Part shown: positions 1,379 through 25,033 of the stretch, piece by piece
Numbering within the stretch: the stretch's first letter is position 1
How the letters are laid out: the number at the start of each line of letters is the position of its first letter
Virus record (IMG/VR): IMGVR_UViG_3300000115_007025
Coordinates: 1-33,716 of that record
Strand: one strand, 5' to 3'
Length of the DNA stretch: 33,716 nucleotides
DNA from: a virus
Made by a program: the position numbers and the translations under genes
The notes under the pieces: generated by a model
Databases searched by the model: none
What the model was told of the DNA's origin: nothing
What the model saw: the letters and a program-made list of their open reading frames with translations, nothing else

Positions 1379-1561
1379 TTATTTAGTTTCGTAATGTTTT
1401 ATTATTTTATCAGAATTTTTACAGCATTCATCTACTTTAGTAGTAGCACAACTACTGAATAAAGTTATTCCTATTAATAATATTACCATTCCTATAATAC
1501 TATATCCTATTGCTTGCATACTAGCTTCATAGCTTTTTTTACTTTTACCTTGAAATTCCAT
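1379..1561 (-). CDS. Small membrane protein or lipoprotein with lipobox
   Basis: A 60-residue protein. Residues about 17-35 form a hydrophobic helix ending in a lipobox-like L34-F-S-S-C38, followed by a short polar tail with another Cys pair (C46, C47). In Bacteroidetes, -SSC- boxes are typical of lipoproteins, but the 16-residue polar segment before the helix is long for a signal peptide, so a single-pass membrane protein is also possible. An outer spanin (lysis) is conceivable but unsupported. It lies 3 nt after the 50-aa ORF and 2 nt before the 133-aa gene. Confidence 0.55.
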   Translation of the reverse strand: MEFQGKSKKSYEASMQAIGYSIIGMVILLIGITLFSSCATTKVDECCKNSDKIIKHYETK

Positions 1562-1721: not shown

Positions 1722-3581
1722 TTATTTGTTGATTATTACTTTAACGTTATCGATAATATACAAACCATTTTCTAAATTTCCAACCTTAGATCTATATTCT
1801 CTACCTAATACATCATAGATTTTATTAATTTTATTAGATGATTCTATTTCGTTTATACTTGTTATAACAAAACATGGTGTATTTATATTGGCTGTGTCAG
1901 ATTCACAATCTAATTGTGTAGCATACGTTCCCATACCTATACCTACGTCAGCACACCCAAATGGTGTACATTCCCATGAATTACTACTTCCAGCACCTGT
2001 TTCAAAATAAGTATTTAATTCAGTGAAGTTTATTAAATTATTTGGATTACCTTCAAATATAACATTATTATTTTGATCAGTTACTAACACCGAACCTACA
2101 CCGTTTGCACAACACATCCCATCACCATATGAATCATATAATTTAAATTCAAAACAACTAGGAAATATAGCTACATATGCTGTTTCATTATATTGAGTAT
2201 TATTTGAATATGGTCCTCCAGAACCATATACTTGCCCAAATTCATCAACAATTTCCCAAGTAGTTTCACTTCCATAACCATCAGTTAAAATAGATACATC
2301 AATTGTTCCAGCAGTAATTCCTGTTATTACATCACCAGATAAATTAAAGTGTTTAAATGTTGAAGTATTAGAATTATTAGTTGTATTTTGATCTACTTGT
2401 CCATTAGGGTTACTAGCTACCCAAGTAATTGTATTATTAGCTTGAGGTATAAAAGCAACGTTATTAATTGTTACTGTTTCTTGAGCACCAGAAATTAAAT
2501 TACCAACCCAATTATACACAGCAGGTGTTCCACCATTAATATCATAAGTTAAATCCAATGAAGTTAATGGTTGATTTCCATAGTTTCTAAATGTGATTGA
2601 AATATCTGTTTCACTTTCACAAATAACATCTTCAGCAGTTGAGTTAGTTACATTAGCATCATAAGCGTTTGGGAATATAGGTATTACATTAGCTTGAAAA
2701 CCAGTAATAATTTCACCGGGGCCTTCAGCTATATAAGCTACAACATCTAAATTTGTAGGATCTAAATCAGGAAAAAATCCAGTAGTTGATTGACCACTAG
2801 CTAAATTAGTAGGCATTTGCCATGTATGTGTATTAGGAACAAATGTACCAGCAGTTGTAATATTAAATTCTAAACCATTAGCACCATCCATTAAATGTCT
2901 AAACATATGTTGATGGTTATAAGTTGGATTCCAAGGTCCTGTTATTATTGCATTTGGGTTATATGATAAAGCACCTGTTTGAGGACCTGGTACGTTATTT
3001 TGTACTACTGCTATGTGTAATATATTTATGTTTGTAGTAGTTTGTGTGTAGTATGTTTCTGTATTAACTGTTAAAATACCTGTTACCATGTCATAACTTG
3101 CTTGAACACCAACATTAACATAAGATGGTTGTGACATAATATCAGCTGATGCTGCTACCCAATCTCCTCTACTTAAAGCTGTAGTACCTGGGCTACCTTG
3201 GGGAGATATTCCACTAAATGTTGCTCTATTAATAGTACCAGCTGGGTAACCTGCTAAACCCGAATTAGCTGCAATTGTAGCTCCGTATAAACAGTTAAAA
3301 TCAGGATCATTAGGTCCATTTGGATTAGCATAACCACCAGTATGTATATTAATTAAGAATACATCATTTGGATTAGCATTGTGTAAATTTTGTGCTATTA
3401 AATGTCCATCAGGGCAAAATTGGCAATAAATGCCTGTAAATTCTTCAAGTATAACATTTTTATTTTCTGGAAGTGTACTTACAAAAGTTTGTGCTTGGGT
3501 TTTTAGAGAGCAAAAAGTTAATATTGCTAACCAAAATATAGTTACTATAAAGTAACCTGTTGGTTTATTTATGTTTTTCAT
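1722..3581 (-). CDS. Secreted Omp28-like thioredoxin-fold protein with T9SS sorting domain
   Basis: A 619-residue, host-like secreted protein. An N-terminal signal peptide (hydrophobic 11-24, probable cleavage after A30) is followed by an Omp28/thioredoxin-like domain with EEFTGIYCQFCPDGH (C53-x2-C56). A CARDB-like beta domain spans about 310-410. A further beta domain spans about 430-495 (DGYGSET ... YDSYGDGMCC), a pattern frequent in secreted flavobacterial proteins, then a Cys-rich linker at 536-570. The C-terminus 586-619 (IYDVLGRE ... NGLYIID) fits a type A Por/T9SS sorting domain, which would send the protein through the host outer membrane. The ATG at 3581 overlaps the upstream gene by 4 nt, so it is in a phage operon, not an isolated fragment. 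The role is unknown; a virion-associated adhesin or a surface-remodelling accessory protein is conceivable. Confidence 0.85.
   Translation of the reverse strand: MKNINKPTGYFIVTIFWLAILTFCSLKTQAQTFVSTLPENKNVILEEFTGIYCQFCPDGHLIAQNLHNANPNDVFLINIHTGGYANPNGPNDPDFNCLYGATIAANSGLAGYPAGTINRATFSGISPQGSPGTTALSRGDWVAASADIMSQPSYVNVGVQASYDMVTGILTVNTETYYTQTTTNINILHIAVVQNNVPGPQTGALSYNPNAIITGPWNPTYNHQHMFRHLMDGANGLEFNITTAGTFVPNTHTWQMPTNLASGQSTTGFFPDLDPTNLDVVAYIAEGPGEIITGFQANVIPIFPNAYDANVTNSTAEDVICESETDISITFRNYGNQPLTSLDLTYDINGGTPAVYNWVGNLISGAQETVTINNVAFIPQANNTITWVASNPNGQVDQNTTNNSNTSTFKHFNLSGDVITGITAGTIDVSILTDGYGSETTWEIVDEFGQVYGSGGPYSNNTQYNETAYVAIFPSCFEFKLYDSYGDGMCCANGVGSVLVTDQNNNVIFEGNPNNLINFTELNTYFETGAGSSNSWECTPFGCADVGIGMGTYATQLDCESDTANINTPCFVITSINEIESSNKINKIYDVLGREYRSKVGNLENGLYIIDNVKVIINK
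1755..1783 (-). promoter_or_regulatory. Promoter P2 (TTGG-N19-TATATT) inside the 3' end of the Omp28-like gene
   Basis: TTGG (1783-1780), a 19-nt spacer ending in TTTG, and TATATT (1760-1755), all within the last codons of the Omp28-like gene. It would drive the 50-aa ORF (ATG at 1717), the lipobox gene and the 133-aa gene. Box, spacing and TTYG element match the other copies exactly. Confidence 0.6.
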
Positions 3582-3898
3582 TGTTTTAATTTATTAATTA
3601 GTTGTTTAATTTCAGCACATTTCTCATATTCTTCATTTTCTTCAAAATAATTACTTATTCTTTTTAATGCTGTTGGGAAATATAAAGATGATAGTTTAAT
3701 TATTATAGATAAATTTACTATATTAAATAATTCTATTGTGGTATAGTTATTTTTAATAGCATCTTTAATAGCCCTAAAAGAATCTCTCATTATAATACCA
3801 CGAAATTCTTCTTTATTTGATAATTCTTTTAATTCCCTTTTATTACTATAACTTATTTCAATATTTGTGATTTTTTTCTTTTTAGTTTTTTTCTCCAT
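3578..3898 (-). CDS. Hypothetical protein with UVR-like C-terminus
   Basis: A 106-residue protein. The N-terminus is strongly basic (MEKKTKKKKITN), the middle is hydrophobic helical, and the C-terminus (NYFEENEEYEKCAEIKQLI) resembles the short UVR helical-hairpin motif found in UvrB and McsA. That motif mediates protein contacts, so an interaction role is possible but not shown. It overlaps the Omp28-like gene by 4 nt and follows the glycan cluster after a 32-nt gap with no promoter motif. Confidence 0.5.
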   Translation of the reverse strand: MEKKTKKKKITNIEISYSNKRELKELSNKEEFRGIIMRDSFRAIKDAIKNNYTTIELFNIVNLSIIIKLSSLYFPTALKRISNYFEENEEYEKCAEIKQLINKLKQ

Positions 3899-3930: not shown

Positions 3931-5001
3931 TTATAAATTAATTAACTCATTAACATAATTTTTAATTTTATTTATTTTTATTTTTAAATTACCTAATTCA
4001 AATTCTCCTATTTCACCACTATCTTTTATAATATCATTTAATTGTGTTAATATTTGAAAATCCTGTTGAGTAAAATTATTACCATCAACTGTAATAATAA
4101 TATCTTCTCCACCATTAGACCAAGGTTCTAATGCTTCTTCAATTTGGGGGTTTGAATTTAAGATATTGAAACTTCTTTTATAAACAGGAGATATTATGGG
4201 TTTCATAAACTGATCATGTTGTACTGTTGTACCCCATTTTTTAATGAATTTTTTCATATTAATAGTTGTAGTTTGTAACCACTCATCTGAATTTTTTCCT
4301 GCAGCTCCCCCAGCATGTTTATTAAATCTACTTCCCCTACTTGTAAAGTGATAAACTAAACCTTCCCATGTTTGTAATATTTTATAACCTTTTAAAACAA
4401 AACGGTTAAATATATCACTATCTTCTTTACTTTGTGGAGCAAATAATTCATCATGTCCTCCTATAGCTAAAAAATCTTCTCTATACATACACCAGGGTGC
4501 AAATATACCTTCAGTAACTAATATATTATGTTTAGGTTTATATTCGTTACTAACCCAATTATTAAATTTATCTATATCAAAATCTTCAACTTCAATTCCA
4601 AAGTCAACTAACATTTTTTCAGGTCCATCTGGGTGTAAAGGTGGTTCAACTCGAGTCGCACTTACAACAGTACCTTTTTTAAGATGTTTTAAAATATGTT
4701 CATCTAAATTAGGTGCTGCTACCATATCCGAATGAAAAGCCATTATAATATCTGTTCTTGCCATTTCAATCCCCTTATCAAACATACCAACTATGCCAAT
4801 ACGATCTGGTCCTGGGTTATGGTATACTATTAGATCTTTATCTCCTAAATTATTAATCCATTCTTGTGTTCCATCAGTACTAGCATCATTTAATACTAAC
4901 ACTTCATGCTTTGTTTTTAGGTTTCTAATTGATTTATATGCTAATTGTAAAAACTCTAAGTTATTTCTACTTGGTATTACAAATGTTATTTTTTTACTCA
5001 T
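3931..5001 (-). CDS. Family 2 glycosyltransferase
   Basis: A 356-residue GT-A fold enzyme. The N-terminus has the GT2 nucleotide-sugar pattern (ITFVIPSRNN at 5-14, VLNDASTDGTQ at 36-46). An acidic HSD near residue 90 sits where the metal-binding DxD is expected, and a downstream ED pair near residue 190 may be the catalytic region. The last 100 residues look like a separate, less conserved tail. It presumably adds a sugar to the glycan made by the surrounding cluster; donor and acceptor are unknown. It overlaps the epimerase gene by 8 nt and is the last gene of the glycan run. Confidence 0.85.
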   Translation of the reverse strand: MSKKITFVIPSRNNLEFLQLAYKSIRNLKTKHEVLVLNDASTDGTQEWINNLGDKDLIVYHNPGPDRIGIVGMFDKGIEMARTDIIMAFHSDMVAAPNLDEHILKHLKKGTVVSATRVEPPLHPDGPEKMLVDFGIEVEDFDIDKFNNWVSNEYKPKHNILVTEGIFAPWCMYREDFLAIGGHDELFAPQSKEDSDIFNRFVLKGYKILQTWEGLVYHFTSRGSRFNKHAGGAAGKNSDEWLQTTTINMKKFIKKWGTTVQHDQFMKPIISPVYKRSFNILNSNPQIEEALEPWSNGGEDIIITVDGNNFTQQDFQILTQLNDIIKDSGEIGEFELGNLKIKINKIKNYVNELINL

Positions 5002-5851
5002 ATTGAAAATTTTTTAAATAATCTTCTAAATTTATTTTAGGTTCCCAATTTAATATTTCATAGGCTCTCTTGTCCTCATTTAAAGTATGCCTTGCTTCTC
5101 CGGGTTTTGCATCTTTATATATGGGATCCACATTCATCATTTTTGCAACTTCATTTACTGAGTGGTTTTTACCTCTTCCAAGTTCAAATTCTAACCCATA
5201 TTTTTTCTTTTCCATAATTAAAATTAAAGCATCTATAATATCATCTACATGGGTAAAGTCTCTTCGTTGTTCTCCATCACCATAAATTTCACATTGTATT
5301 GAATTTTTGATATTATTTAACCATCTACCAATTAAAGTAGTATAGCCTCCTTCTGTTAATTGGTATGGACCATAAACATTATAAAAACGAGTTATTGAAG
5401 CTTTTAAACCATAATGTATTTTATACAATTCAATTATATCCTCTCCTAAATCTTTACTAAAAGTATATGGATTTTTATATTTCCCACTATGTTTTGATGA
5501 CGAACCAGCATATATTAAGGGTATATTTTTTTCAGCACAATATTTTACTATTTCATATGTACCTTGAAAGTTAGTATTTATATATTGTTGTGGGTTTTTA
5601 AAGGAGGGTTGTATTCTAGCTATAGCTGCTAAATGAAATATAATATCAGGTTTATAAGATGATAGAGGATCAATAAAGTTCGTATTAAATTTTATAATAT
5701 CTAAATCTTTATATTTACATCCTTCTTGATGGTTAGATTCTAAACCAGTATTGTAATTATCTATTGATTTTACTTCATATCCTTCTTTTAATAATCTTTT
5801 AATAAGATTAGTTCCTACAAACCCAGCTCCTCCCGTTACTAATATCTTCAT
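4994..5851 (-). CDS. NAD-dependent sugar epimerase/dehydratase
   Basis: A 285-residue extended short-chain dehydrogenase. The Rossmann motif GGAGFVG is at 7-13, the SSS catalytic stretch near 117-119, the Y129-x3-K133 pair follows, and DFTHVDD is typical of the UDP-glucose 4-epimerase branch. It interconverts or oxidises a nucleotide-linked sugar in the cytoplasm. It is somewhat shorter than most GalE-type enzymes (about 310-340). It could equally act on a GDP sugar made by Gmd four genes upstream; the sequence does not decide. It overlaps both neighbours by a few nt. Confidence 0.85.
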   Translation of the reverse strand: MKILVTGGAGFVGTNLIKRLLKEGYEVKSIDNYNTGLESNHQEGCKYKDLDIIKFNTNFIDPLSSYKPDIIFHLAAIARIQPSFKNPQQYINTNFQGTYEIVKYCAEKNIPLIYAGSSSKHSGKYKNPYTFSKDLGEDIIELYKIHYGLKASITRFYNVYGPYQLTEGGYTTLIGRWLNNIKNSIQCEIYGDGEQRRDFTHVDDIIDALILIMEKKKYGLEFELGRGKNHSVNEVAKMMNVDPIYKDAKPGEARHTLNEDKRAYEILNWEPKINLEDYLKNFQYE

Positions 5852-6741
5852 ATTTTAAATTTTGATTCATGGTAATATCTTTGATACTGTTCTTTTGCTG
5901 TTTGAGAACATTTATCATACCATTGTTTGTCTTCTTTAAGTTGTGTAAGTTTTTCTTTTGCTGTAGATAAATCTCCTAATTTAACTGTTAAATGAGGATG
6001 ACATACTTCTTGCGTGTCTAATCCTTCATACCCAATACAAGGAATACCTAAATAAGCACAGTTTAAAGCAAATGTACCTGCAGCATGTGTACGCATTAAG
6101 TGGATACCATATTTAAAATTATTAAGTGTTTTAATCCATTCTACCCAATTCATATAAGGTAAATGATTTAAATTCTCCATTTGTTCTTCACCTTCAATTT
6201 TTCTCCCCATACTAGGGATATAAATAGAACAATCTGCTTCTTGTGCTACAATATATGAATCAAATCCTCCGTACCAACTACAAAAATTACCTCCTATAAT
6301 AATATCTTTTCTCTCTATTTGGGGTAAATTATTAATTGAATCTTCAATCATTAAACTAGATAAAATTTTACATTCTTTACCTGTTAAACCTTCATAATAT
6401 TTTTGATCGGATTTATTATGAACAAACATAAAATCTGCTTCTTGTATGGTATTAAAATACCAAATTTGTTGTGGAAGAGAATAATCTTGCCAATACCAAT
6501 TAGGGCCTTCCTGCATTACAGCTATTTTACTACAATATTGTTTTAATCTATTTAAATCAAATTGTGGGTTATTTTTAGGTATAATAATAATCCCTAAATC
6601 ATATTGTTGGTTTGGTAGTGAATTTATATTCCAATGGTCAGCATTTAAAGAACAAATCCAAGCTAAATCTGTACGCATATTGGGATTATCTCTAGAAATT
6701 TTACCTTGATATCCTCCTTCAGTGAAAAATGCTATTTTCAT
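5848..6741 (-). CDS. Putative GT-B-like glycosyltransferase
   Basis: A 297-residue protein. The order of features suits a GT-B fold: an N-terminal sensor-like half (MKIAFFTEGGYQG) and a C-terminal half with a region (GTFALNCAYLGIPCIGYEG) resembling the donor-binding segment of glycosyltransferases where a substrate-rich loop precedes a conserved Gly/Ile/Pro turn. No diagnostic ExxxxxxxE is seen, so the family is uncertain. The tight 4-nt overlap with gmd and with the epimerase supports a role in the same pathway. Confidence 0.6.
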   Translation of the reverse strand: MKIAFFTEGGYQGKISRDNPNMRTDLAWICSLNADHWNINSLPNQQYDLGIIIIPKNNPQFDLNRLKQYCSKIAVMQEGPNWYWQDYSLPQQIWYFNTIQEADFMFVHNKSDQKYYEGLTGKECKILSSLMIEDSINNLPQIERKDIIIGGNFCSWYGGFDSYIVAQEADCSIYIPSMGRKIEGEEQMENLNHLPYMNWVEWIKTLNNFKYGIHLMRTHAAGTFALNCAYLGIPCIGYEGLDTQEVCHPHLTVKLGDLSTAKEKLTQLKEDKQWYDKCSQTAKEQYQRYYHESKFKI

Positions 6742-7715
6742 AGTGTTTTTTTGAAATATTCTAACCAGTGGTCAGTCATTTCTTCCATCATTGATTTAAA
6801 TGTATAAGTTGTTTTCCAACCTAATTCTGTTCTAATTTTAGTAGAATCACCTTTTAAATATGGTAATTCTTCAGGTCTCATAAATTTTGGATTTTGTTCA
6901 ATATAATCCTTATAATTTAAACCTAAATGATTAAATACTACATCACACATTTCTCTTACTGAATGGGTTTCCATAGTAGATACTACCCAATCTCCAGGTT
7001 TATCATGTTGCATCATTAAATGCATTGCTCTTACATAATCATATGAATGTCCCCAATCTCTATAAGAATCTACATTACCTAATTCTAATTTATCCTGTAA
7101 TCCAAGCTTAATCCTAGCAGCCGCTTTAGCAACTTTATTAGTTACAAAATTAGATCCTCTCCTAGGAGATTCATGATTAAATAATATACCATTTGTAGCA
7201 TGTAATCCGTAAGCACGTCTATAATTTCTTACAATATTATAACCAAATACTTTAGAACATCCATAAGGAGATACTGGATTCATTACTGTAGTTTCTCTTT
7301 GAAAATTATCATCATCAACAGATAAACCAAACATTTCAGAACTGCTTGCCTGATAGAATTTAGCTTTAGGGCATGAACGTCTATATGCCTCTAACATATT
7401 AAGAACTCCTAATGCATTTGTTTGAACTGTAAATTGAGGTATATCAAAACTAATTCTTACATGAGATTGAGCTGCTATATTATAAATTTCATCAGGTTGA
7501 ATATCATCTAATAATCTTTCTAATCCTCCTTGGTCTAATAAATCCCCATAATAAGTTGAAACCTTATCTTCTATATTAGCTATTCTAAGATCTTGATTTT
7601 CAGGTGTTGAATTTCTTCTAACAATACCATGAACTTCATATCCTAATTCAACTAAGTATTCTGCTAAATAACTTCCATCTTGTCCTCCTATTCCTGTAAT
7701 AAATGCTTTTTTCAT
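6738..7715 (-). CDS. gmd: GDP-mannose 4,6-dehydratase
   Basis: A 325-residue enzyme of the extended SDR family that turns GDP-mannose into GDP-4-keto-6-deoxymannose, the precursor of GDP-fucose, GDP-rhamnose and GDP-perosamine. Seen here: the cofactor loop GIGGQDG at 8-14, the catalytic SSSE (124-127) and Y151-x3-K155, the R34/R35 pair and NHESPRRG. All are hallmarks of Gmd. It is slightly shorter than the cellular enzyme. The neighbours include a GT10 fucosyltransferase-like domain, which uses GDP-fucose, so a 6-deoxyhexose product is likely. A separate GDP-fucose synthase was not recognised. Confidence 0.92.
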   Translation of the reverse strand: MKKAFITGIGGQDGSYLAEYLVELGYEVHGIVRRNSTPENQDLRIANIEDKVSTYYGDLLDQGGLERLLDDIQPDEIYNIAAQSHVRISFDIPQFTVQTNALGVLNMLEAYRRSCPKAKFYQASSSEMFGLSVDDDNFQRETTVMNPVSPYGCSKVFGYNIVRNYRRAYGLHATNGILFNHESPRRGSNFVTNKVAKAAARIKLGLQDKLELGNVDSYRDWGHSYDYVRAMHLMMQHDKPGDWVVSTMETHSVREMCDVVFNHLGLNYKDYIEQNPKFMRPEELPYLKGDSTKIRTELGWKTTYTFKSMMEEMTDHWLEYFKKTL

Positions 7716-7718
7716 GTT

Positions 7719-8342
7719 TTATTTTGTTTGTAAATAAGGATCTACTCCTTCTATATTATTAAATATTTTCATTTGAGATACATCTGGCCAATCATTTATT
7801 GTCCATTGTATGGGTTTGGTTTTTATTGCATCTGGTAGTTTTTTTAAACCTAATTCAGCAGTTTCTGGGGTCATATAATAATGGTAACCCATAGTATCTA
7901 TATTTTGTTCTCTCCAAGGGACATCTGGTAGCCTACCATCATAAGACATCTTTTTTAATTTAATTGCTGCTTCTTTATTATCCGTTAATATACAACCCCC
8001 TCTACCCAAAGCCAAGTGTTTTCTAAACTGAAAGCTAATACTCATGAAGGTTCCAGGAATATAACTATTTTTTTTCCACAATACAGCAGCATCAATAATA
8101 TTATCAGTTAAATAATAATAATCTTTCCAATTTTCATCCTTAAATTCTAGAAACATATTTAATTTTGATGCTAAAAATGGTACTGATATATAAGTTCTTT
8201 TAGGAACTTTAATTGAATTTATATGTTCATGTCTTAAACATAATTCAATCCCATGAGTACAACAATCTACTGCTATAGCATATTTTGCTCCAAAAAAATC
8301 TGCAATTTTATTTTCAAATGTTTTTATACTTTCAAAACTCAT
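7719..8342 (-). CDS. Short DegT/DnrJ/EryC1-type PLP aminotransferase homologue
   Basis: A 207-residue protein matching the core of DegT-family sugar aminotransferases: FGAKYAIAVDCCTHGIEL, IIDAA with D84 (pyridine-nitrogen Asp) and SFQFRKHLALGRGG with K108 at the PLP-lysine position. Cellular members have about 360-400 residues; this one lacks most of the C-terminal domain, so catalysis is unproven. Such short versions recur in marine phages as far as I recall. With Gmd immediately downstream, amination of a 4-keto-6-deoxy sugar (perosamine type) is one possibility; a scaffolding or isomerase-like role is another. Confidence 0.75.
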   Translation of the reverse strand: MSFESIKTFENKIADFFGAKYAIAVDCCTHGIELCLRHEHINSIKVPKRTYISVPFLASKLNMFLEFKDENWKDYYYLTDNIIDAAVLWKKNSYIPGTFMSISFQFRKHLALGRGGCILTDNKEAAIKLKKMSYDGRLPDVPWREQNIDTMGYHYYMTPETAELGLKKLPDAIKTKPIQWTINDWPDVSQMKIFNNIEGVDPYLQTK

Positions 8343-8878
8343 TTTTTAACTTCTATATTTAAACTAATTAAAGTGCCATTTTCTTTATCCATATGTGGGA
8401 TGTAGGCTTGAGAATGATCGTCAAAAATACCATGCTCAGTTTCTTGCCAAAGATAATAATCCATACTGTGAAATCCAACCTCATCTAATAATTCTTTTAA
8501 ACTATCAAAATCATAAGTAGTTTTGTGAAATATAAAATCTTCCCCCATTTTCATCTTTCCATAAAGAGGTCCTAAAAAATTATTTAAGGGTATATTTTTT
8601 TCTATATATAATTTTGCCATAGTTTTAAAATTAGGTACAGCTAATCTTAATGTGCCCCCAGATTTTAACTTTGATTTCCATTTATTTAAAACCTCAATAA
8701 TTTCTACCCTATCAAAATATTCAATAACATGACTTGCATATATTAAGTCAACGGAATTATCTTTAAAAGGTAGATTAATAATATCACGAGAATCTAAATG
8801 ATCATAATCTCCACCATCTACATGATGCCAATCTTTTCCAAAATTTCTCCACCCACATCCTAAATTTATTTTTATCAT
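8339..8878 (-). CDS. Class I SAM-dependent methyltransferase
   Basis: A 179-residue Rossmann-fold methyltransferase. Motif I is INLGCGWRNFG at 4-14, an acidic residue after the next strand (HHVDGG) should bind the SAM ribose, and LPFKDNSVDLIYASHVIEYF is a clear post-motif II/III block, followed by LKSGGTLRLAVP. The substrate is unknown; position in the glycan run suggests a sugar. It overlaps the DegT-type gene by 4 nt. No truncation is visible for this small family. Confidence 0.8.
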   Translation of the reverse strand: MIKINLGCGWRNFGKDWHHVDGGDYDHLDSRDIINLPFKDNSVDLIYASHVIEYFDRVEIIEVLNKWKSKLKSGGTLRLAVPNFKTMAKLYIEKNIPLNNFLGPLYGKMKMGEDFIFHKTTYDFDSLKELLDEVGFHSMDYYLWQETEHGIFDDHSQAYIPHMDKENGTLISLNIEVKK

Positions 8879-8880
8879 AA

Positions 8881-9300
8881 TTATTTATTGTTTAAAAATT
8901 CTTTATCTAATTTTTGACCTTCATAAGGTCCAGTTTTATACTCATATACTATAGTATCATCTTCTAAAATTTCATAAGTATGACCACCATATAAAGTAAA
9001 ACTTGCATCACCAACTCCTAAAATAGGTTCTGCAATTATTGTATCATCTAAATCATAAAACTTACACTTTACTTTTCCTTTAATTACTACCCAAGATTCT
9101 TGAGCAATTTGTTCAGGATAATGTCTATCTTTAGTTATATGTTTATGTGGTGGGAATGTTTTTCCTTTTTCCATTTTTAAAGTAGCACATTGGATAAAAT
9201 TTTCTTCAGAAACTATGTCTTTTCTTCCTTCAATATCTGACAGTCTATTTATTATATGTAATAATTTATTTTCTTGTACCTTTGAGTATATTTTTATCAT
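8881..9300 (-). CDS. Cupin-fold protein
   Basis: A 139-residue single-domain cupin. The metal-site pattern is present: FPPHKHITKDRHYPEQ followed by ESWVVIKGKVKC, and a second strand motif with GGHTYEIL. Cupins in glycan clusters are often sugar isomerases/epimerases or WbuC-like proteins; the exact reaction cannot be read from the sequence. It sits 2 nt from the methyltransferase gene and 2 nt from the sulfotransferase stop. Confidence 0.7.
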   Translation of the reverse strand: MIKIYSKVQENKLLHIINRLSDIEGRKDIVSEENFIQCATLKMEKGKTFPPHKHITKDRHYPEQIAQESWVVIKGKVKCKFYDLDDTIIAEPILGVGDASFTLYGGHTYEILEDDTIVYEYKTGPYEGQKLDKEFLNNK

Positions 9301-9302
9301 TT

Positions 9303-9944
9303 TTAGTATAGTGTTGGTGAATAATGTTCAAATTTATAATTAAAGTGTTTAATATCATCTTTATGCATGTTTCTTACCCTTTCTCTTGTTTCATCAGTAT
9401 AATAAGTAGAATAATGATCATGTTTGGATTGGTTTTTTTTCATATGAGTATATTTTACATATAAACCAATTTCCCTTAATTTTTCCTCTGATAGTTCTTC
9501 GATTTTTATAAAATGGTCTACATATTTTTCACCATCATATCCCCATTCTAACATTTGTTGGTATTTTAAAACTTTGAAATCTCCCCTATCAAATGATAGA
9601 GTATCTCTATTATCATATATAAATCTTATAAAATCAGTAAAGGTATTACCTTTTTTTTCAATATTTTCAAATTCTGGTATGAAATCAGGGTCTCTTCCTC
9701 CTCTCTGTTGTAAATAAAAATACCAAGATACATACCAACTCCAAGGATTTCTTACTGTAGTAAATGATATATGTTCTTCATAATCATCCATTAAATTTTT
9801 TATATCTTTTAATGTTATATGTCCTACTATACTTCCCATTGCTACTTTTCCTAAATCAAATATATGTTCTATAGTTGTTCCCCCTGTTTTAGGAATATGG
9901 ACATAAACATATTTTTTATTATTATTAAGTATTTTATAAGCCAT
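9303..9944 (-). CDS. Sulfotransferase family protein
   Basis: A 213-residue enzyme expected to move sulfate from PAPS to a glycan hydroxyl. The 5'-phosphosulfate loop VHIPKTGGTT (K19) and the 3'-phosphate site TVRNPWSW (R65, S69) are both clear. The frame can be extended upstream to a GTG at 9971, overlapping the previous gene; I chose the ATG at 9944, 2 nt after the preceding stop, because it places the PAPS loop at the usual distance from the N-terminus. Sulfotransferases are uncommon in phage genomes. Confidence 0.8.
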   Translation of the reverse strand: MAYKILNNNKKYVYVHIPKTGGTTIEHIFDLGKVAMGSIVGHITLKDIKNLMDDYEEHISFTTVRNPWSWYVSWYFYLQQRGGRDPDFIPEFENIEKKGNTFTDFIRFIYDNRDTLSFDRGDFKVLKYQQMLEWGYDGEKYVDHFIKIEELSEEKLREIGLYVKYTHMKKNQSKHDHYSTYYTDETRERVRNMHKDDIKHFNYKFEHYSPTLY

Positions 9945-9946
9945 AA

Positions 9947-12226
9947 TTATTTTTTCTTCCAATATTCCCACACAAAAGGATAATAAAACACAGGTTCATG
10001 TGTTTCTTTTAATTTATTAATAATTTTTTCTCTTCTTTTAATAGGGGTATGAGATAAATAATGGAATTGGATTAAAAACCCATCAATTTTATCTTGAAAT
10101 TCTGAGTCGATAATTTCTTCCAGTAATTCATATTCAGCTCCTTCAATATTTAATTTTATTAAGTCTATATTTTTTAATTTTTGAGAATTTATATATTCTC
10201 TAAATTTAACTTTTTTACATTTTATTGTATTATCACCCTTTATAAACTGAGATGAAGAATTATCGTCTACAACAATTTCAAAATCTTCAGTAGAATCACC
10301 TAATGCAAAACTATTAACTATAATTTTAGGGTTTGTTGTATTTTTATATTTCTCAACAAAAGAAGTTACAGGTTCAAAAGCATGTATGTTACATTTATAT
10401 TTATCATATATTTTAGTAAAATATTCTCCTTCAAAAGCTCCAACATCAAAAACAATAGAATCTTCATTTAAATCAAAAGTATATAAATGAGAATGATCTC
10501 CACCTTTAGTAAAAAATTGGTTTAACCAATAATCTTGTATGTAACCGTCAACTGCTGTTCTAGGATCCGAACTGTTAAGGTTAACTATTTCTGTAGAAGT
10601 ATTTTCTATTTTACTTTTGATTTTATTAAATGAAAACTGTACAGAATCCCTATATTTTTTAGCAATTTTATAGTTTTCTTTTACTGCATCTATTTTTTTA
10701 TTATATTCTTCTATATTTAAACTTTTAATTATGCTTTTAACTTCTTCTTCAGTGTTAAATAAAATAAACCCATCCATATTGAAATATTCTGATATTTTTT
10801 TACAACCATGATATATAGGGATAGTTCCAGTTAAAAGACAATCTAATAGTTTTTCAGAAAAATAATTATCCTGTACATGATTTTCTATTACTAAAGAAAA
10901 TGCATAATCTTTTAAAGCAAGAATTTTACCATCATAATCTCCCCCTTCATGGTTTTCTGGGAGTGGGTTATGTCCTCTACCAAATAATTCAATATTACTG
11001 TGAGGATTACTTTGATAAAAATTAAGTAAACTAATTCTCATTTTTTGGTCTACCGTATAGGTTTTATTAGAAGTTATATAAGAACAAATTTTAGATTTAG
11101 GTAAAATCTTTTGAACTTTTTTAGGCCATATCCATGTTCCTCCATAAGGAGTTATTATAACTTTTTCTTTAAATTTATTAATTAATTGATCATCATATGT
11201 TACAATGTAATCAAATAAACTATGATTATCTTCAATAAATTTATACCTTACAGGATCCATTATCCTACATTCTGTTAATAAGGCTACTTTAGTTTTAGGG
11301 TTTGTTATTTCTTTTATCTTATATATTCCATCTTTTATAAAATAAGTTAAATCTACAGAATTTTGGTTATAAGTTATCTCAAATTCCTTATTATTAATTT
11401 CTTCTCTACACCAAGGTTTTTGTGTATACCAATCATCGTAACCAACGATATTAATAGTGTCTTTTTTTAATTTATCTATTAGCCTCCCTCCTAATTCCTC
11501 AGCAAATTGAGTTTTTGATACCATAGTAATATATTCAATTTCCCCACAACCATTATTTGGTCCTCCTTCCCACCAAAATCCAGGATAAATTTCAAAACTA
11601 TGAGGGGTCTTAGGATTATTATGATAATGTGAAAAATTACCTTTAGTAATTTCTACCCAATGTGTAGAAGACATAAAGTTATCTAATAAAGATAATAGTA
11701 GTTTTTTTGTAAAGATACTGGATAATGTTACAGGGTATGCTCCATTTATTAAAACATCATTAGAGCTTTCTCTACAATGTTTAGCATAATGTGTACCCCA
11801 ATTAAAAATTAAATAATTATCTTTTTCTACTGCTAACCAACTATTTGATAAATGTTCAGCCCTTTTAATCCATTTAAGATCTTGGGTTAATAAACATTCT
11901 ACACCATTTTCAACCATAGCTTTAAAAGAATTATCAAACTCTTTAATATTAAAAATGTGTGAATCTTCTTCCCAAATATAATAATAATCTGAAGGGTTTT
12001 GATTTATTAATAATTTAATTTCTTTAGCCCAGTATTCATCTATATTATCTTTCCAAATAATATTTTTATATTTGCTAAATTCCTTTATAAAATTATCAGG
12101 TAATTTTTCAACAAAAGAAATAATTAACTTATTTAAGTATTGAGACTTTTGTACATTAGCAAGTGAAGTTGCAAACATATCAAAATCATCAGTTGGTTTT
12201 ATATATGTAACTATGTTAAATTTCAT
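9947..12226 (-). CDS. Fusion: GT-A-like domain + GT10 fucosyltransferase + FkbM methyltransferase
   Basis: A 759-residue multidomain enzyme. Residues 1-250 look like a glycosyltransferase-type alpha/beta domain with an acidic YYIWEEDSH patch. Residues about 315-525 hold a GT10-like alpha-1,3-fucosyltransferase segment with the signature YAFSLVIENH ... YFSEKLLDCLLTGTIPIYHG at 441-474. Residues about 560-759 form an FkbM-type methyltransferase (VFDVGAFEGEY near 592-602, HAFEP near 615-619, IDLIKLNIEGAE). It likely adds and O-methylates a deoxyhexose such as fucose. The upstream TTG at 12235 is in frame, but ATG at 12226 is the better start; it overlaps the previous gene by 11 nt. Confidence 0.8.
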   Translation of the reverse strand: MKFNIVTYIKPTDDFDMFATSLANVQKSQYLNKLIISFVEKLPDNFIKEFSKYKNIIWKDNIDEYWAKEIKLLINQNPSDYYYIWEEDSHIFNIKEFDNSFKAMVENGVECLLTQDLKWIKRAEHLSNSWLAVEKDNYLIFNWGTHYAKHCRESSNDVLINGAYPVTLSSIFTKKLLLSLLDNFMSSTHWVEITKGNFSHYHNNPKTPHSFEIYPGFWWEGGPNNGCGEIEYITMVSKTQFAEELGGRLIDKLKKDTINIVGYDDWYTQKPWCREEINNKEFEITYNQNSVDLTYFIKDGIYKIKEITNPKTKVALLTECRIMDPVRYKFIEDNHSLFDYIVTYDDQLINKFKEKVIITPYGGTWIWPKKVQKILPKSKICSYITSNKTYTVDQKMRISLLNFYQSNPHSNIELFGRGHNPLPENHEGGDYDGKILALKDYAFSLVIENHVQDNYFSEKLLDCLLTGTIPIYHGCKKISEYFNMDGFILFNTEEEVKSIIKSLNIEEYNKKIDAVKENYKIAKKYRDSVQFSFNKIKSKIENTSTEIVNLNSSDPRTAVDGYIQDYWLNQFFTKGGDHSHLYTFDLNEDSIVFDVGAFEGEYFTKIYDKYKCNIHAFEPVTSFVEKYKNTTNPKIIVNSFALGDSTEDFEIVVDDNSSSQFIKGDNTIKCKKVKFREYINSQKLKNIDLIKLNIEGAEYELLEEIIDSEFQDKIDGFLIQFHYLSHTPIKRREKIINKLKETHEPVFYYPFVWEYWKKK

Positions 12227-12977
12227 ATTTATCAAATTTTGGAAGAGTTCTTATATGTGCTTCAGTTGATTTTTGTTTTTCTAAATTTCCTGCTGCCTGA
12301 TTTGGATTAGATCTATTTAGAATTAATAAGATATCATCTATTAATTTAATTTTTTCAGAAGAACTACACATTTCTGCTAATGAAAATAAATAAGCACAGT
12401 CTGTGGCCTCAGTATAAAATTTGTTAGATCTAGAATCTATTAAATCTGATTTATTAAAATTATAAAACAAAAATGCTTTATGTGTTCTTAAATGAGAATA
12501 AACATGCATCCAATTTCTATATGCTCTATTTTGATGAATTTCATTTGGTATTTCTATACAATGATGTGATCCATCTTGTCCTGTAGGAAACATTTGATAA
12601 GTTCCATATGTCATCCAACAATTAGTATTATTATAAAATTGATCTAAATATTGTAAAACAAATACTGAAGAAAACCAATCATCCCCATCTAACCACACTA
12701 CTATTTCATTTGGGTCTGGTTTTGCTGTATGAAAGGCATTATAATAATTTTTTAAAGAACTGCCTGTCCTTTCTGGGTTTCTAATATATTTAAATCTATC
12801 ATCCCCTTTAATAGTCGATTCTATGATGTTTTGAGTATTATCAGTAGACCCATCATCTATAATAATACATCTAAAGTTTTTATAAGACTGATGTATAGTA
12901 GTTAGTAAATTTAATTTTACCCATTTTTCTACATTATAACAAGGCATTATAATTAAAAACTTATTAGATTGTGTCAT
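12216..12977 (-). CDS. Family 2 glycosyltransferase
   Basis: A 253-residue GT-A enzyme with a textbook N-terminal half: FLIIMPCYNVEKWV, CIIIDDGSTDNTQNII and the metal-binding WLDGDDW near residues 90-97. The C-terminal part has few familiar motifs. It transfers an unknown sugar onto the growing glycan on the cytoplasmic side of the membrane. It overlaps the next gene by 14 nt upstream and the fusion gene by 11 nt downstream, so all are translated from one transcript. Confidence 0.88.
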   Translation of the reverse strand: MTQSNKFLIIMPCYNVEKWVKLNLLTTIHQSYKNFRCIIIDDGSTDNTQNIIESTIKGDDRFKYIRNPERTGSSLKNYYNAFHTAKPDPNEIVVWLDGDDWFSSVFVLQYLDQFYNNTNCWMTYGTYQMFPTGQDGSHHCIEIPNEIHQNRAYRNWMHVYSHLRTHKAFLFYNFNKSDLIDSRSNKFYTEATDCAYLFSLAEMCSSSEKIKLIDDILLILNRSNPNQAAGNLEKQKSTEAHIRTLPKFDKYEI

Positions 12978-13596
12978 AAAATTTATTCTGTCTTTCTTGC
13001 CTTTTTATATCTTTAGGGTGGTATAAACAATACTCTGGATTACTAGGTAATGATGCAAACTTATCATATCCTACTAATTGCTCATGAACAGGTTTTATCC
13101 ATTTAACCCTATCAGGACTATTTTTATAAATTCTCATTTGTTTATCTGGGAAATTTACCCAACTTTTATCATTAAGGCTCCATCCCCACTTTTGAATATG
13201 TTCTGTAGTTAATCCTTTTACAGTATTAATTCTAGAAACCCAATATGCTTCTACTTCAGGATTATTTTCTATCATCCAAGGTAACCCTTCACAAAGGTAT
13301 TCATTAGGATATTCATCAGCATCAATTAAAAACACCCAATCACCACTACACATCTTGGTAAGATAATTTTTTTGTTGAGCAAAATCATTATTTAAAGGAT
13401 TTGAATGCCATATAAAAGGAGAAACAGTTCCTACACTTTTTGCTCTTAAATACTCTTCTACAACTTTAGAACCATTTTGAGAGTCAAATAGTATTACAAT
13501 TTCATCCTCATTACGTTTATGTTTTATTAAAAAATCTACTAATCTTTGTAATTCATTAATTTCATTACAAACAGGAATGGCATAACTTATTTTCAT
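12964..13596 (-). CDS. Family 2 glycosyltransferase, WaaE/KdtX-like
   Basis: A 210-residue GT2 member: SYAIPVCNEINELQRLVDFL at the N-terminus, FDSQNGSKVV, then FLIDADEYP near residue 115 as the metal-binding acidic cluster, followed by the RIYKNSPDRVKW and HEQLVGY region seen in LPS-core WaaE/KdtX-like transferases. It is likely involved in LPS-like or virion glycan assembly. Promoter P3 lies just upstream, inside the end of the preceding zinc-ribbon gene. Confidence 0.82.
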   Translation of the reverse strand: MKISYAIPVCNEINELQRLVDFLIKHKRNEDEIVILFDSQNGSKVVEEYLRAKSVGTVSPFIWHSNPLNNDFAQQKNYLTKMCSGDWVFLIDADEYPNEYLCEGLPWMIENNPEVEAYWVSRINTVKGLTTEHIQKWGWSLNDKSWVNFPDKQMRIYKNSPDRVKWIKPVHEQLVGYDKFASLPSNPEYCLYHPKDIKRQERQNKFYDTI

Positions 13597-13602
13597 GTTT
13601 TT

Positions 13603-14061
13603 TTAATTTGGTAATATTCCAATATACGAAAGAGCATCCATAAATCCACGTTCTTTATCAAAAGATTTTAGATTTTCCATATCCATCCTATGTTTATAAT
13701 ATTCACCTGGTTTTCCGGGGATTGGATATTTTAATTTATCTTTATCTTCTACTTCAATTGCTTTAACTGCAGCCCATGACCAATTCTCAATATTACTACC
13801 ATTTACAAATACCATTCCTAATTCTGGTTGGTTTACCGTATTAGGGATCCAATATTGGTCATTTTTATCTTTATATATTAAATCTTTATATAATTCAGGA
13901 AGTGACATTAATTGTTGTTCCCAATATTCTTCCCCCTCTTTCATTAATGAGTTTGATATAAAACCACAACCATAACAAACATAATTAGTAATTTTTTCAT
14001 TTACTTCTTGTTTATAACAAGCATCAGAACCACATCTAAGGCATTTAACTAATTCATCCAT
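13603..14061 (-). CDS. Zinc-ribbon hypothetical protein
   Basis: A 152-residue protein. An N-terminal zinc ribbon (C7-x2-C10 and C29-x2-C32) precedes a domain with many Trp/Tyr and acidic residues. I do not recognise the family for certain; similar-looking proteins sit beside glycosyltransferases in other marine phages as far as I recall. The start overlaps the GT4 gene by one nt (TAATG type). Its last codons carry promoter P3. Confidence 0.6.
   Translation of the reverse strand: MDELVKCLRCGSDACYKQEVNEKITNYVCYGCGFISNSLMKEGEEYWEQQLMSLPELYKDLIYKDKNDQYWIPNTVNQPELGMVFVNGSNIENWSWAAVKAIEVEDKDKLKYPIPGKPGEYYKHRMDMENLKSFDKERGFMDALSYIGILPN
13621..13649 (-). promoter_or_regulatory. Promoter P3 (GTGG-N19-TATATT) in the end of the zinc-ribbon gene
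   Basis: Minus strand: GTGG (13649-13646), 19 nt ending TTTCG, then TATATT (13626-13621). The -33 box differs by one base from the TTGG seen elsewhere; spacing and TTYG are exact. The ATG of the WaaE-like gene (13596) is 24 nt further on. It could give extra transcription of the downstream half of the glycan cluster. Confidence 0.5.
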
Positions 14062-15389
14062 TATAATTTTTTTAATTTAGGTAATTTTAATTTAGGAGAT
14101 AGTTTTTCTCCCCCATTTATTTTTTTAAGTTTAGGTAATGATAATTTTACTTGTTCAGGGATATTAATTGTATTTTCTAATATTTCATTTATTTTAGCTT
14201 TCATATTTTCAAAAGCAAAATAAGTTCTACTATGATATCCTTGTCTTTTTGATTGTTCTAACCAAAACTTATAATCATTATATATTTCCTTATATGATCT
14301 ATTTACTTCCATTATGTTGGGTTGAAACCATTGAGATTCTGCAAGTAACATATCTTTTTGTTGAACTGAAGGGTGGAGATTAGTTAATGTTCCATTGAGT
14401 AACAAAGTAAAATCTTTTGAAAGAAAATCTAACTGACCAGACCACCCAGAACAAATTATTGGTTTATTTACTAAAGAAAATTCTAATAGAGGTCTACCAA
14501 ATCCTTCTCCCCTAGTATGAGAAACCATAGCTTTTATTTTAGGGTGGTTGTATAATTCATTCATTTCTTGATTAGTAAAATTACCATGTAAAAGATAAAT
14601 ACTAGGTAAATTTTTACCACAACTACTACGTATTATATCAATTCTTTTCATTATTTCTCTTCTATCCATATAAGAAGAATTTACTGAAGATGTTTTTAAA
14701 ATTAATGCTGGTTTTTTCTTTTTATTTTTAAAAGTATCATAAAAAGATTTAACAGTAACACCCATATTTTTTCTATCTTCACCTAAACTACCCTGCATCC
14801 AATGTCCTACAGCTAAAAAAGCAAAATCTTCAGGGATAGAATTAATATCTTTTAATAAATTTAATTCTTTAAATTCAGAATCTTTAATAGGTTTATAAAT
14901 ATTTAAATCAGCTCCTTCTAATAATACTTCTATAGGTTTTTCAATTTTAATTTCTCCTATTTTTTTATTTGTTTTTTGATCTACTTTATCAAATTTAGAA
15001 TTTAAAAATACTTGTTTAGAATGTTCAGATGAAACAATATTTAAATTCATTTTATTCATACCTTCAATCCAAGGGGCAGAACATAATGTTGTTTCAATTC
15101 CAGCTGTAAATCCTATATTAAATTTCCCAATAGCTTGAAACTCATTAGGTACAGTAATCTGTGACCAAATATCAGGTTGGGAAGTTAACTGTGTTGTAAT
15201 ATGTTTTTGTAAAAACTTCCATTCAGGATTATCATTAATAAATCCAAAAGAAGTACTACCCCACCTTTGAGGTATTATTTTAACATCATATTTATTTAAT
15301 TCTATTATTGATTTAACTAAATCTCTTGACCTTGCTCCATATCCACTGTAAGTGTCAATTGGGCAACTTATAACAAATGTATTTTTCAT
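14061..15389 (-). CDS. GT4-type glycosyltransferase
   Basis: A 442-residue GT-B fold enzyme. SGYGARSRDLV near the start is the acceptor-side glycine loop, and residues around 295-310 hold EGFGRPLLEFSLVNKP, the E-x7-E donor-phosphate motif of GT4. The C-terminus carries a basic repeat in which LPKLKK occurs twice around residues 420-442, separated by a short linker; it may bind membrane or nucleic acid. It belongs to the glycan cluster, its stop touching the zinc-ribbon start. Confidence 0.8.
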   Translation of the reverse strand: MKNTFVISCPIDTYSGYGARSRDLVKSIIELNKYDVKIIPQRWGSTSFGFINDNPEWKFLQKHITTQLTSQPDIWSQITVPNEFQAIGKFNIGFTAGIETTLCSAPWIEGMNKMNLNIVSSEHSKQVFLNSKFDKVDQKTNKKIGEIKIEKPIEVLLEGADLNIYKPIKDSEFKELNLLKDINSIPEDFAFLAVGHWMQGSLGEDRKNMGVTVKSFYDTFKNKKKKPALILKTSSVNSSYMDRREIMKRIDIIRSSCGKNLPSIYLLHGNFTNQEMNELYNHPKIKAMVSHTRGEGFGRPLLEFSLVNKPIICSGWSGQLDFLSKDFTLLLNGTLTNLHPSVQQKDMLLAESQWFQPNIMEVNRSYKEIYNDYKFWLEQSKRQGYHSRTYFAFENMKAKINEILENTINIPEQVKLSLPKLKKINGGEKLSPKLKLPKLKKL

Positions 15390-15391
15390 AT

Positions 15392-16828
15392 TTAATAAAC
15401 TAATTTATGTGGTAAAATTCTTTTTTCATAATCTGTGTCTTTAAGGAATTCATATTTTTCTCTAGGTTCCCATGTTGAAAATAATTCTTCCATTCCTTCC
15501 ATAACTCTATTTGCCATTTTTTTAGAGGTAAACCCAGCTTCATCTCCCTTAGCCCAGTTATACCCCTTTTTACCAATAGCTTTTCTTTCTTCCTTTTCCA
15601 TCTTATATAATTTCATAATTTGATCAGCTACATCATTAATATCATGATGATCATCATATATATAAGGAGTTGGAGGAGAACCAACTAAAGTACTTGATTT
15701 AACATAAACCGGTAAAGCCCACTCACCATGTTTTTTATATTTTCCTTTATGGTTAGAAGGGAATTCATCATTAAATTCAATCCAATCTCCATTTTCATCT
15801 TCAAATCTCATTTGGTCTTGCATTCCCCCAGTAACTACTGCTATAAAAGGTGTTCCTGTTAACATAGATTCAGTTAATGATAATCCCCAACCTTCAGCGT
15901 TTGATATTTGTATTACACCATCTGCAGAATTATATAATAAATTCATTTCCTGAGTTGATAACTTATGTTGTAATATTCCTACTCTACAAGTTTCAGGAGG
16001 ACACATATATTCAATTACAGCTGTTAAGTCTGTCCCATGATCAAATGATGCTTCTGTTTTTAAAGTTAATTGACATTTTTTAGCTTCTTCTGGTGGTAAT
16101 TGTTCTGTAAATAATTTCCATGCCATTATAATATTAGAAGGTTGTTTTCTTCTTATATTTCTTGAATTATAAATTAAATGAAAATTATTATCTTCAGGTA
16201 ATCCTAAATTTTTCTTAAACTGTAGTAATTCAGGAGAATTATCTTCTAATATATTAAATAAAGTATCATTTAATCCGTGAGGAACATATTTAAATATTTT
16301 ATTTTTACCTTTACTACCTAATACTAATTTATTAATATTAACAGTTTGTTTAGATATTCCTAATAATAAATCACAGGATTCATAGTATTCCTTATTATAC
16401 ATTGGAGCTGGGTAATTATCCCAAATATTAAGATATATTATAGGCATTGAATTTCTTATTTGATCTTCAGAATTAAACAACCAAGCAAAATATCTAGGAT
16501 CAGTTATTAAAAATAAAGCATCTGGCTTTTCATTATCTATTATTGCTCTTAATTCATCTATGCTTCCATACCCTTTAGTAGGGTATAATCTTACATAAGG
16601 GTCTTTTTCTTCTACTAATTTTTGAGATATTATTTCTCCAGCAAGATCAATAATTTTACCTTTATCTGGGTGATCTACTGCTCCTGCTATTTGGGCCCAA
16701 TTGTATTTATGTAAAGTATTAAAAACAATTTCTCTTCCTATTTGAGCAACACCAGAATGAACTCTAATATCATCTGTTATTAAAAGAATTTTTTTTCTAT
16801 CTTCTTTTTTAATATAACCTTCTTTCAT
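15392..16828 (-). CDS. GT4-type glycosyltransferase
   Basis: A 478-residue GT-B fold enzyme and the first gene of the glycan cluster. ILLITDDIRVHSGVAQIGRE opens the N-terminal domain; EGWGLSLTESMLTGTP is the E-x7-E motif of GT4 near residues 315-330, followed by GGMQDQM. It is paralogous in layout to the next gene, so the two may act in succession on the same acceptor. It starts 13 nt after the end of the RHH gene; no promoter motif was found directly ahead. Confidence 0.85.
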   Translation of the reverse strand: MKEGYIKKEDRKKILLITDDIRVHSGVAQIGREIVFNTLHKYNWAQIAGAVDHPDKGKIIDLAGEIISQKLVEEKDPYVRLYPTKGYGSIDELRAIIDNEKPDALFLITDPRYFAWLFNSEDQIRNSMPIIYLNIWDNYPAPMYNKEYYESCDLLLGISKQTVNINKLVLGSKGKNKIFKYVPHGLNDTLFNILEDNSPELLQFKKNLGLPEDNNFHLIYNSRNIRRKQPSNIIMAWKLFTEQLPPEEAKKCQLTLKTEASFDHGTDLTAVIEYMCPPETCRVGILQHKLSTQEMNLLYNSADGVIQISNAEGWGLSLTESMLTGTPFIAVVTGGMQDQMRFEDENGDWIEFNDEFPSNHKGKYKKHGEWALPVYVKSSTLVGSPPTPYIYDDHHDINDVADQIMKLYKMEKEERKAIGKKGYNWAKGDEAGFTSKKMANRVMEGMEELFSTWEPREKYEFLKDTDYEKRILPHKLVY

Positions 16829-25031: not shown

Positions 25032-25033
25032 AT

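Follow-up and report, generated by a model that had tools for sequence, protein, structure and literature searches.

The Omp28-like gene and its neighbourhood

The window, by which we mean the whole 33,716-base stretch of DNA analysed here, is a single linear IMG/VR virus record in which essentially all genes lie on the minus strand; it encodes a T4-like DNA polymerase and clamp loader, GroEL, Hsp20, QueC/QueE, GTP cyclohydrolase and a long glycan island. At positions 1722-3581 on the minus strand lies an intact open reading frame of 619 amino acids, which the ORF call, profile matches and intact homologues identify as an Omp28/HBP35-like protein with a signal peptide and a short T9SS-type tail. 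The gene start overlaps, as ATGA, the stop of a conserved 106-aa ORF (3578-3898, minus strand) that is directly upstream in eight of eight phage relatives, and this overlap makes translational coupling of the two likely. The 106-aa product looks cytoplasmic, has no Pfam match and is assigned to no family. Immediately downstream is a gene for a 60-aa small membrane or lipobox-like protein (1379-1561, minus strand), which several relatives keep; this is a statement about neighbourhood and does not imply that the two proteins act together. A promoter scan returned fewer sites than did shuffled sequences.

On the other side, positions 3931-16828 (minus strand) hold a glycan-modification island recognised by PHROGs and Pfam matches, with glycosyltransferases, nucleotide-sugar epimerases/dehydratase, a sulfotransferase and methyltransferases; GDP-mannose dehydratase-like, fucosyltransferase-like and FkbM methyltransferase genes are among its members, and the Omp28-like gene sits at its edge. 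The content of the island differs among related phages right up to this gene: in two relatives (L006 and L007) the glycan genes further upstream are replaced wholesale, although the 106-aa ORF is still directly upstream of the Omp28-like gene. Elsewhere in the window, at 24102-27053, two separate genes (25374-27053 and 24102-25031) encode the halves of a split DNA polymerase B, and a mannose-6-phosphate isomerase-type cupin gene (25034-25384; PF01050, E = 6e-33) lies between them; in an 84-kb relative (G003) nothing is inserted, and the halves overlap by 4 bases.

Domain architecture and structural likeness

The architecture of the protein can be read from its sequence. Residues 1-31 (MKNINKPTGYFIVTIFWLAILTFCSLKTQAQ; 3489-3581, minus strand) form a Sec-type signal peptide that ends ...KTQAQ/TFV; phage relatives always keep a signal peptide, but in two interchangeable types. 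The Omp28/thioredoxin-fold domain follows (residues 32-295; 2697-3488, minus strand), with PF11551 matching over residues 105-260 just above its cut-off (E = 9e-9, 35.8 bits against 34.9), where the relatives score 62-74 bits, and NF033782 matching over residues 12-246 (E = 1.1e-18). The latter match, at 67.4 bits, is below that model's own cut-off of 150 bits and the mature N-terminus, TFVST, carries no cysteine, so the protein does not qualify as an Omp28 lipoprotein. Alignment places a CxxC active-site-like motif at residues 53-56 (CQFC, within EEFTGIYCQFCPDGH; 3414-3425, minus strand); F48-I51, C53, C56 and P57-H60 (CxxCPDGH) are invariant in all 18 aligned phage and host homologues, and H223 and H225 are conserved in the same alignment. 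Next come a CARDB/Ig-like beta domain (residues 300-412; 2346-2684, minus strand), within which AlphaFold predicts beta strands over residues 309-411, a DGYGSET/YDSYGDGMCC beta domain recognised from sequence (residues 413-530; 1992-2345, minus strand) and, from alignment and identities, one copy of a Cys-rich linker (residues 531-572; 1866-1991, minus strand), of which hosts L013 and L014 have an extra copy. An earlier note made from the DNA alone had proposed a signal peptide, a CxxC thioredoxin-like Omp28 domain and CARDB-like and DGYGSET-type beta domains. The first two are borne out by the cleavage site, the PF11551 score and the invariant CxxC, and the DGYGSET-type region stands; the CARDB-like region is present as well, but its profile match is sub-threshold and found only in one relative, L063.

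In Foldseek searches the best PDB match was HBP35 (5y1a; E = 1e-10, TM 0.58 by target length), whereas searching the PDB by sequence returned no more than a weak match, to a cellulose-binding protein, and Foldseek against viral models gave generic beta-domain matches only. HBP35 is a T9SS cargo of P. gingivalis with thioredoxin activity that binds hemin and aids growth in low haem (PMC2907840), and nested deletions showed that its last 22 residues, which contain motifs D and E, are required for GFP to reach the surface through the T9SS (PMC3120885). The two proteins have in common a signal peptide, a thioredoxin-fold domain with CxxC, a beta region and a T9SS tail; they differ in the extra DGYG and Cys-rich modules of the phage protein, and identity is 15%. 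With the Omp28 family (PF11551; NF033782 lipoproteins; NF045500 selenoproteins) the phage protein shares the Omp28 domain and a CxxC-type redox site, but it falls below the NF033782 and NF045500 cut-offs and, in place of a lipoprotein cysteine after the signal peptide, has a T9SS-type tail.

A resident gene of a phage lineage

Eight relatives in IMG/VR, on contigs of 24-84 kb from several samples, carry copies that are 82-90% identical, and the genes downstream are common to them (the 60-aa lipobox protein where present, then proteins of 133, ~80 and 207 aa). The T4-like DNA polymerase and clamp loader of the window and the tail sheath (PHROG 23, 6e-74) and tail tube of G003 mark these as phage genomes, and the sheath proteins of G003 and the cultured Flavobacterium phage immuto share 52% identity. 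The gene has a GC3 of 0.115, the same as other phage genes, against 0.16-0.17 in host copies, and dN/dS among relatives is 0.17-0.39, values that show the gene, at the level of sequence, to be under purifying selection. The earlier note had named host DNA joined into a viral contig, beside the lack of a TIGR04183 or Omp28 match, as findings that would overturn its reading, and the Omp28 domain of the body is in fact 83% identical to host. Nevertheless, such close relatives with a shared neighbourhood imply that the gene is not an assembly chimera: eight contigs from different samples have the same neighbours, and host copies differ in both ends, in neighbourhood and in GC3. We therefore reject a chimeric assembly, which is next to inconceivable on these data.

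The same neighbourhood bears on whether the product could instead be a virion protein, such as a tail or fibre adhesin, whose apparent export signals are incidental. Its beta-rich modular body would suit such a part, and in phage L184 a short Omp28 gene and its neighbour lie near structural-looking genes. However, clear signal peptides are present in all complete copies, a PHROGs search with the Omp28-like gene gave no match, and the position of the gene, in the window and in the closest relatives, is next to glycan genes and a long way from those for sheath and tube; we consider a virion role very improbable.

A compact T9SS-type tail

The relatives' alignment, AlphaFold and motifs defined previously (PMC11969387) delimit a compact T9SS-type tail at residues 573-619 (1725-1865, minus strand). 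Its landmarks are a predicted cleavage site at T574/S575-I576 (cleavage-type motif TSINE), motif B at K587-E595 (KIYDVLGRE), motif D at N605-I610 (NGLYII) and motif E at K614-K619 (KVIINK); the YPNP half is absent. The C-terminal block had been read in the earlier note as a T9SS sorting domain detectable with TIGR04183. The sorting-type motifs are indeed there, but the domain is not: although PF11551 recovered Omp28, TIGR04183 and PF18962 gave no match to the window tail in profile searches even at E <= 5, because the tail is of a different, short type. The relatives' short tails likewise escape PF18962/TIGR04183 or reach 12-13 bits where the cut-off is 23, whereas host copy L013 has a full Por_Secre_tail (37.1 bits; PF18962, 1.1e-12).

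When short and full tails are aligned, the TSINE/TAINE region, IYDVLGR, NGLYI and KV..K are kept, and the YPNP segment and the loops are lost. All 26 host copies with a readable C-terminus end in a full T9SS tail (YPNP... to ...GxYYV...K) and all 12 distinct phage copies end in a short tail of ~45 aa; tail type thus tracks phage versus host, although the phage copies represent at least two lineages. In hhalign comparisons of short with full tails, 0 of 100 column shuffles reached the observed score, with modest probabilities of 14-64%, and short tails from hosts aligned with full tails at E = 6e-5. AlphaFold predicts three short strands in the window tail (588-590, 606-610 and 613-617) at low confidence (pLDDT about 45-57).

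These properties resemble those of the short CTDs of Prevotella intermedia, which are 40-51 aa long with PT/GI cleavage and Ile at +2, motifs B (Tyr and Gly, following basic residue), D (GxY-I) and E (basic residues), and three predicted strands, and for which cleavage and C-terminal glycosylation have been observed; according to the same study, short CTDs are on record only for that species (PMC11969387). From S575 to K619 the window tail is 45 aa long, viral short tails being mostly 39-46 aa, and it has the cleavage motif with Ile at +2 and motifs B, D and E; 35 of 42 viral short tails fit a loose regular expression for a PT/GI-type cleavage motif with Ile at +2. Length, motifs and Ile +2 are thus common to both sets, and the low-confidence strands of the window tail would suit a three-stranded sheet; the difference is that the CTD-like tails described here occur in marine Flavobacteriales and their phages and that their cleavage site is predicted. 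One candidate explanation, that the tail is a decayed full tail peculiar to this gene, was discarded, because many phage and host proteins have the short tail. We know of no experiment in any Flavobacteriales on so short a tail.

Relationship to Flavobacteriales hosts

In a scan of a genome collection, Flavobacteriales genomes yielded copies with 65-74% identity across most of the protein's length (L012-L016) as well as remoter copies (L017-L019); the ninth match, L011 (CAJQJC010000069.1), is a Flavobacteriales-phage contig mis-binned into a Pelagibacter MAG. At the level of the family, Omp28 matches occur in 42 of 52 genomes. A tree built from 40 Omp28 domains places the window phage and its relatives in one group with L012-L016/L141, supported at 100/100, and supplies the phylogeny against host proteins that the earlier note had called for; the tree does not resolve the branching inside this clade. 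Phages L063/L096 and L181-L184 are placed elsewhere, and the phage copies are therefore not one clade. The Omp28 domain of the window is 77-84% identical to host copies L012-L015, and from that domain through to the Cys-rich linker the four body segments are 83, 76, 61 and 40% identical to host L013, compared with 53, 74, 83 and 71% to phage L063; in the DGYGSET domain, identity is 83-87% to phages L063/L096 and 61-70% to hosts L012-L015. As judged from these comparisons, the body came from, or was exchanged with, the host lineage represented by L012-L016.

Candidate hosts, which are inferred from gene content, belong to a T9SS-bearing group by their own sequences: SprA is present in five of the six candidate host genomes searched, each candidate genome encodes 22-41 full Por_Secre_tails, and in three genomes (G009, G012 and G013) the host Omp28 gene lies about 1.7 kb from the T9SS translocon gene sprA. 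Matches to a short-tail profile occur in 38 of 52 host-family genomes, and these host short tails belong to proteins with signal peptides whose genes lie in the chromosome beside housekeeping genes (L136); both hosts and phages also have a sister compact tail (LFYIYDDGTVEKK). Among 98 other genomes, from Pelagibacteraceae, the family of the mis-binned MAG, a single weak short-tail match was obtained apart from the mis-binned phage contig (E = 0.009), with an internal stop. The proposal that the phage makes a protein which its host exports is accordingly upheld in part: the protein is host-derived and, from its sequence, probably exported by the T9SS, but it lacks the standard TIGR04183 tag.

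Signal peptide and tail as shared phage modules

We scanned 2.9 million viral contigs with a degenerate DNA pattern for K[IM]YDxLGRE, a strict pattern that misses variants, and obtained 49 stretches. Motif B lies 14-26 codons before the stop in 46 of the 47 viral ORFs that contain it, and the single exception (L052) ends in a full-length tail; this terminal position, with the full Por_Secre_tail of host copies, indicates that the tail is more than a chance likeness. Signal peptides were predicted, by a simple home-made rule applied to contigs that are fragments, in 33 of 34 complete viral ORFs with the tail; of 443 other ORFs from those contigs, 51 had one (Fisher 8e-27, a value that overstates independence because 29 of the tailed bodies form one homologous cluster). 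The tailed cargo falls into six unrelated groups: a CDS-motif-rich family of 150-290 aa (29 members), Omp28-like proteins (7), a third family (4) and three singletons.

The signal peptides are shared in a similar manner. An exact 24-base stretch from the DNA of one signal-peptide type (CTTGGACTACAAACACAAGCACAA) occurs in 26 viral stretches, and 18 of the 19 complete ORFs that include it carry the tail; the nineteenth comes from a tailed gene whose reading frame is broken. In their signal-peptide DNA, the Omp28 genes of L005 and L009 are 85-88% identical to the CDS family, and the window matches an unrelated cargo gene in L062 at 71 of 94 positions (score 69, shuffled maximum 28), while comparison of this DNA with host copies gave nothing comparable to the phage-phage likeness. 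The tail DNA of the Omp28 genes in L011, L063 and L096 is common to the CDS family and not to the tails of host copies; the window tail DNA has diverged further from this phage pool, which makes the case for tail exchange less direct for the window. Both ends of the gene nevertheless appear to be phage-type export signals exchanged onto a host-derived body. A homologue search with the tail alone recovered only near copies and one 592-base fragment, because its tblastn confirmation step is too stringent for 45 aa.

Several phages carry more than one such gene. The Omp28 gene adjoins a short-tailed CDS gene in L063 and L096, G002 has both genes apart from each other, and G003 has its Omp28 gene together with a 997-aa repeat protein that bears a full tail. 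The presence of the same signals on unrelated proteins in related viruses suggests that these viruses have their own set of exported proteins. The gene, which the earlier note expected to be an unusual accessory, is not a one-off; it belongs to a phage cargo set with interchangeable signal-peptide and tail modules. We lean somewhat towards the more general proposition that marine Bacteroidota phages own a modular secretion wrapper (signal peptide plus compact T9SS signal) that recombines onto captured host genes and onto phage genes. Every phage would in that way place a secretome of its own on the cell that it infects, and the compact signal would be a class of T9SS tag that is widespread in marine Flavobacteriales but that existing models do not yet cover.

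Other tailed cargo was seen during this survey. Large signal-peptide proteins in viral contigs L222-L232 terminate in a second compact tail (xxITDLLGRP..LLFYIYDDGTVEKK), a type that is common in host genomes, and one phage genome of 151.9 kb (G070, L066 record) has three Por_Secre_tail ORFs and a short-tailed 257-aa ORF. Phages L182, L183 and L184 share a cassette comprising an OM-barrel-like signal-peptide protein (in L182 and L184), a thioredoxin-like secreted protein, a short-tailed Omp28 protein of ~330 aa and a large GCTDPxAxNYxP-repeat protein, the last with a full T9SS tail in L184 and a 5' MAM domain in L182 (PF00629, 1e-22); G003 has the same set, without Omp28, at 28821-33906. The cultured phage immuto encodes gp015 (NC_055915.1:12691-13422, L202), a signal-peptide protein annotated as 'cohesin domain-containing' that carries a full Por_Secre_tail (13186-13410, E = 3e-10), and thus has a T9SS cargo gene in a phage that can be grown in the laboratory.

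The modular distribution of the tail bears directly on a periplasmic alternative, in which Sec alone exports the protein and its site of action is the periplasm (in thiol redox, or in a chaperone-like or stress role), the short tail being a relic that does not address the T9SS. Thioredoxin-fold proteins often act in the periplasm. Curated T9SS tail models do not match the tail, its dN/dS over 47 residues (0.26-0.67) is noisy but above that of the body in most pairs, and a secreted thioredoxin-like gene adjoins the Omp28 gene in L182-L184. On the other hand, every one of the 12 distinct phage copies has an intact tail that keeps the cleavage-type motif as well as motifs B, D and E, the tail DNA is common to unrelated secreted cargo, and such tails also occur on host chromosomal proteins; several cargo families would not have gained a mere relic anew, which counts against this alternative. 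We regard it as unlikely.

Proposed function

The explanation that we consider probable is that a captured Flavobacteriales surface-protein gene with an HBP35-like fold has been placed in an exchangeable phage secretion wrapper and that its product is exported by the host T9SS and may change the cell surface. Under this model, the gene is kept by a lineage of lytic-looking T4-like marine phages and would be expressed during infection from an operon adjoining the glycan genes. After Sec export, motifs B, D and E would allow the host T9SS to recognise the protein in the periplasm; it would then pass through the SprA pore and be cut by the PorU sortase at about T574/S575, which would leave the mature protein on, or released from, the surface of the infected cell. 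There its HBP35-like thiol/adhesin body may alter the surface, most likely together with the products of the phage glycan genes, such that further adsorption is lowered or cell-cell contact is altered; the earlier note had put forward surface remodelling, superinfection exclusion or biofilm as candidate roles. We infer T9SS use, cleavage, surface location and role from the features described above; export through the T9SS is a reasonably good prospect, and a surface-remodelling role, if export takes place, is about an even call.

Export as proposed could also serve another end, namely nutritional or redox support through HBP35-like handling of haem, metal or thiols, an auxiliary metabolic job as opposed to surface remodelling against other phages. 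The fold match to HBP35, with its thioredoxin and hemin-binding activity and its part in low-haem growth (PMC2907840), is consistent with this, as are the invariant CxxCPDGH and the conserved H223/H225; however, identity to HBP35 is only 15%, and the position of the gene beside a variable glycan island points to surface interactions. A nutritional role is thus a possibility that we hold to be doubtful.

Phage-encoded T9SS cargo is already on record, in Cryophage, a Bacteroidetes phage (PMC7468147), and as T9SS-tagged ORFs near BACON genes in phages (PMC6949934). Those cases resemble the present one in that phage proteins bear T9SS sorting domains, are presumed to use the host T9SS and vary between related phages; they differ in having standard T9SS tags (type A for Cryophage) on enzymes or a PA14 protein, and were called a unique occurrence, whereas here a compact tag, shared as a module with unrelated cargo, is found on a thioredoxin-fold Omp28 protein. 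Searches of phage GenBank with the whole 619-aa protein and with a 170-aa short-tail protein gave no match, the 997-aa protein gave repeat-driven matches only, and a literature search for Omp28 plus phage returned only false matches. What is new is the compact tag in marine Flavobacteriales and their phages, exchanged as a module together with the signal peptide, and the identification of a cultured phage, immuto with its gp015, in which the general idea can be tested.

If this reading is correct, tailed phages of an abundant marine bacterial group would dress the infected cell with several phage proteins by way of the host's own type IX machine. The compact tag is invisible to standard models, so such proteins would be missed in phage and host genomes alike; it would also provide a directly testable minimal T9SS signal outside Prevotella. 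The swapping of gene ends would then represent a capture route by which host surface proteins are re-addressed.
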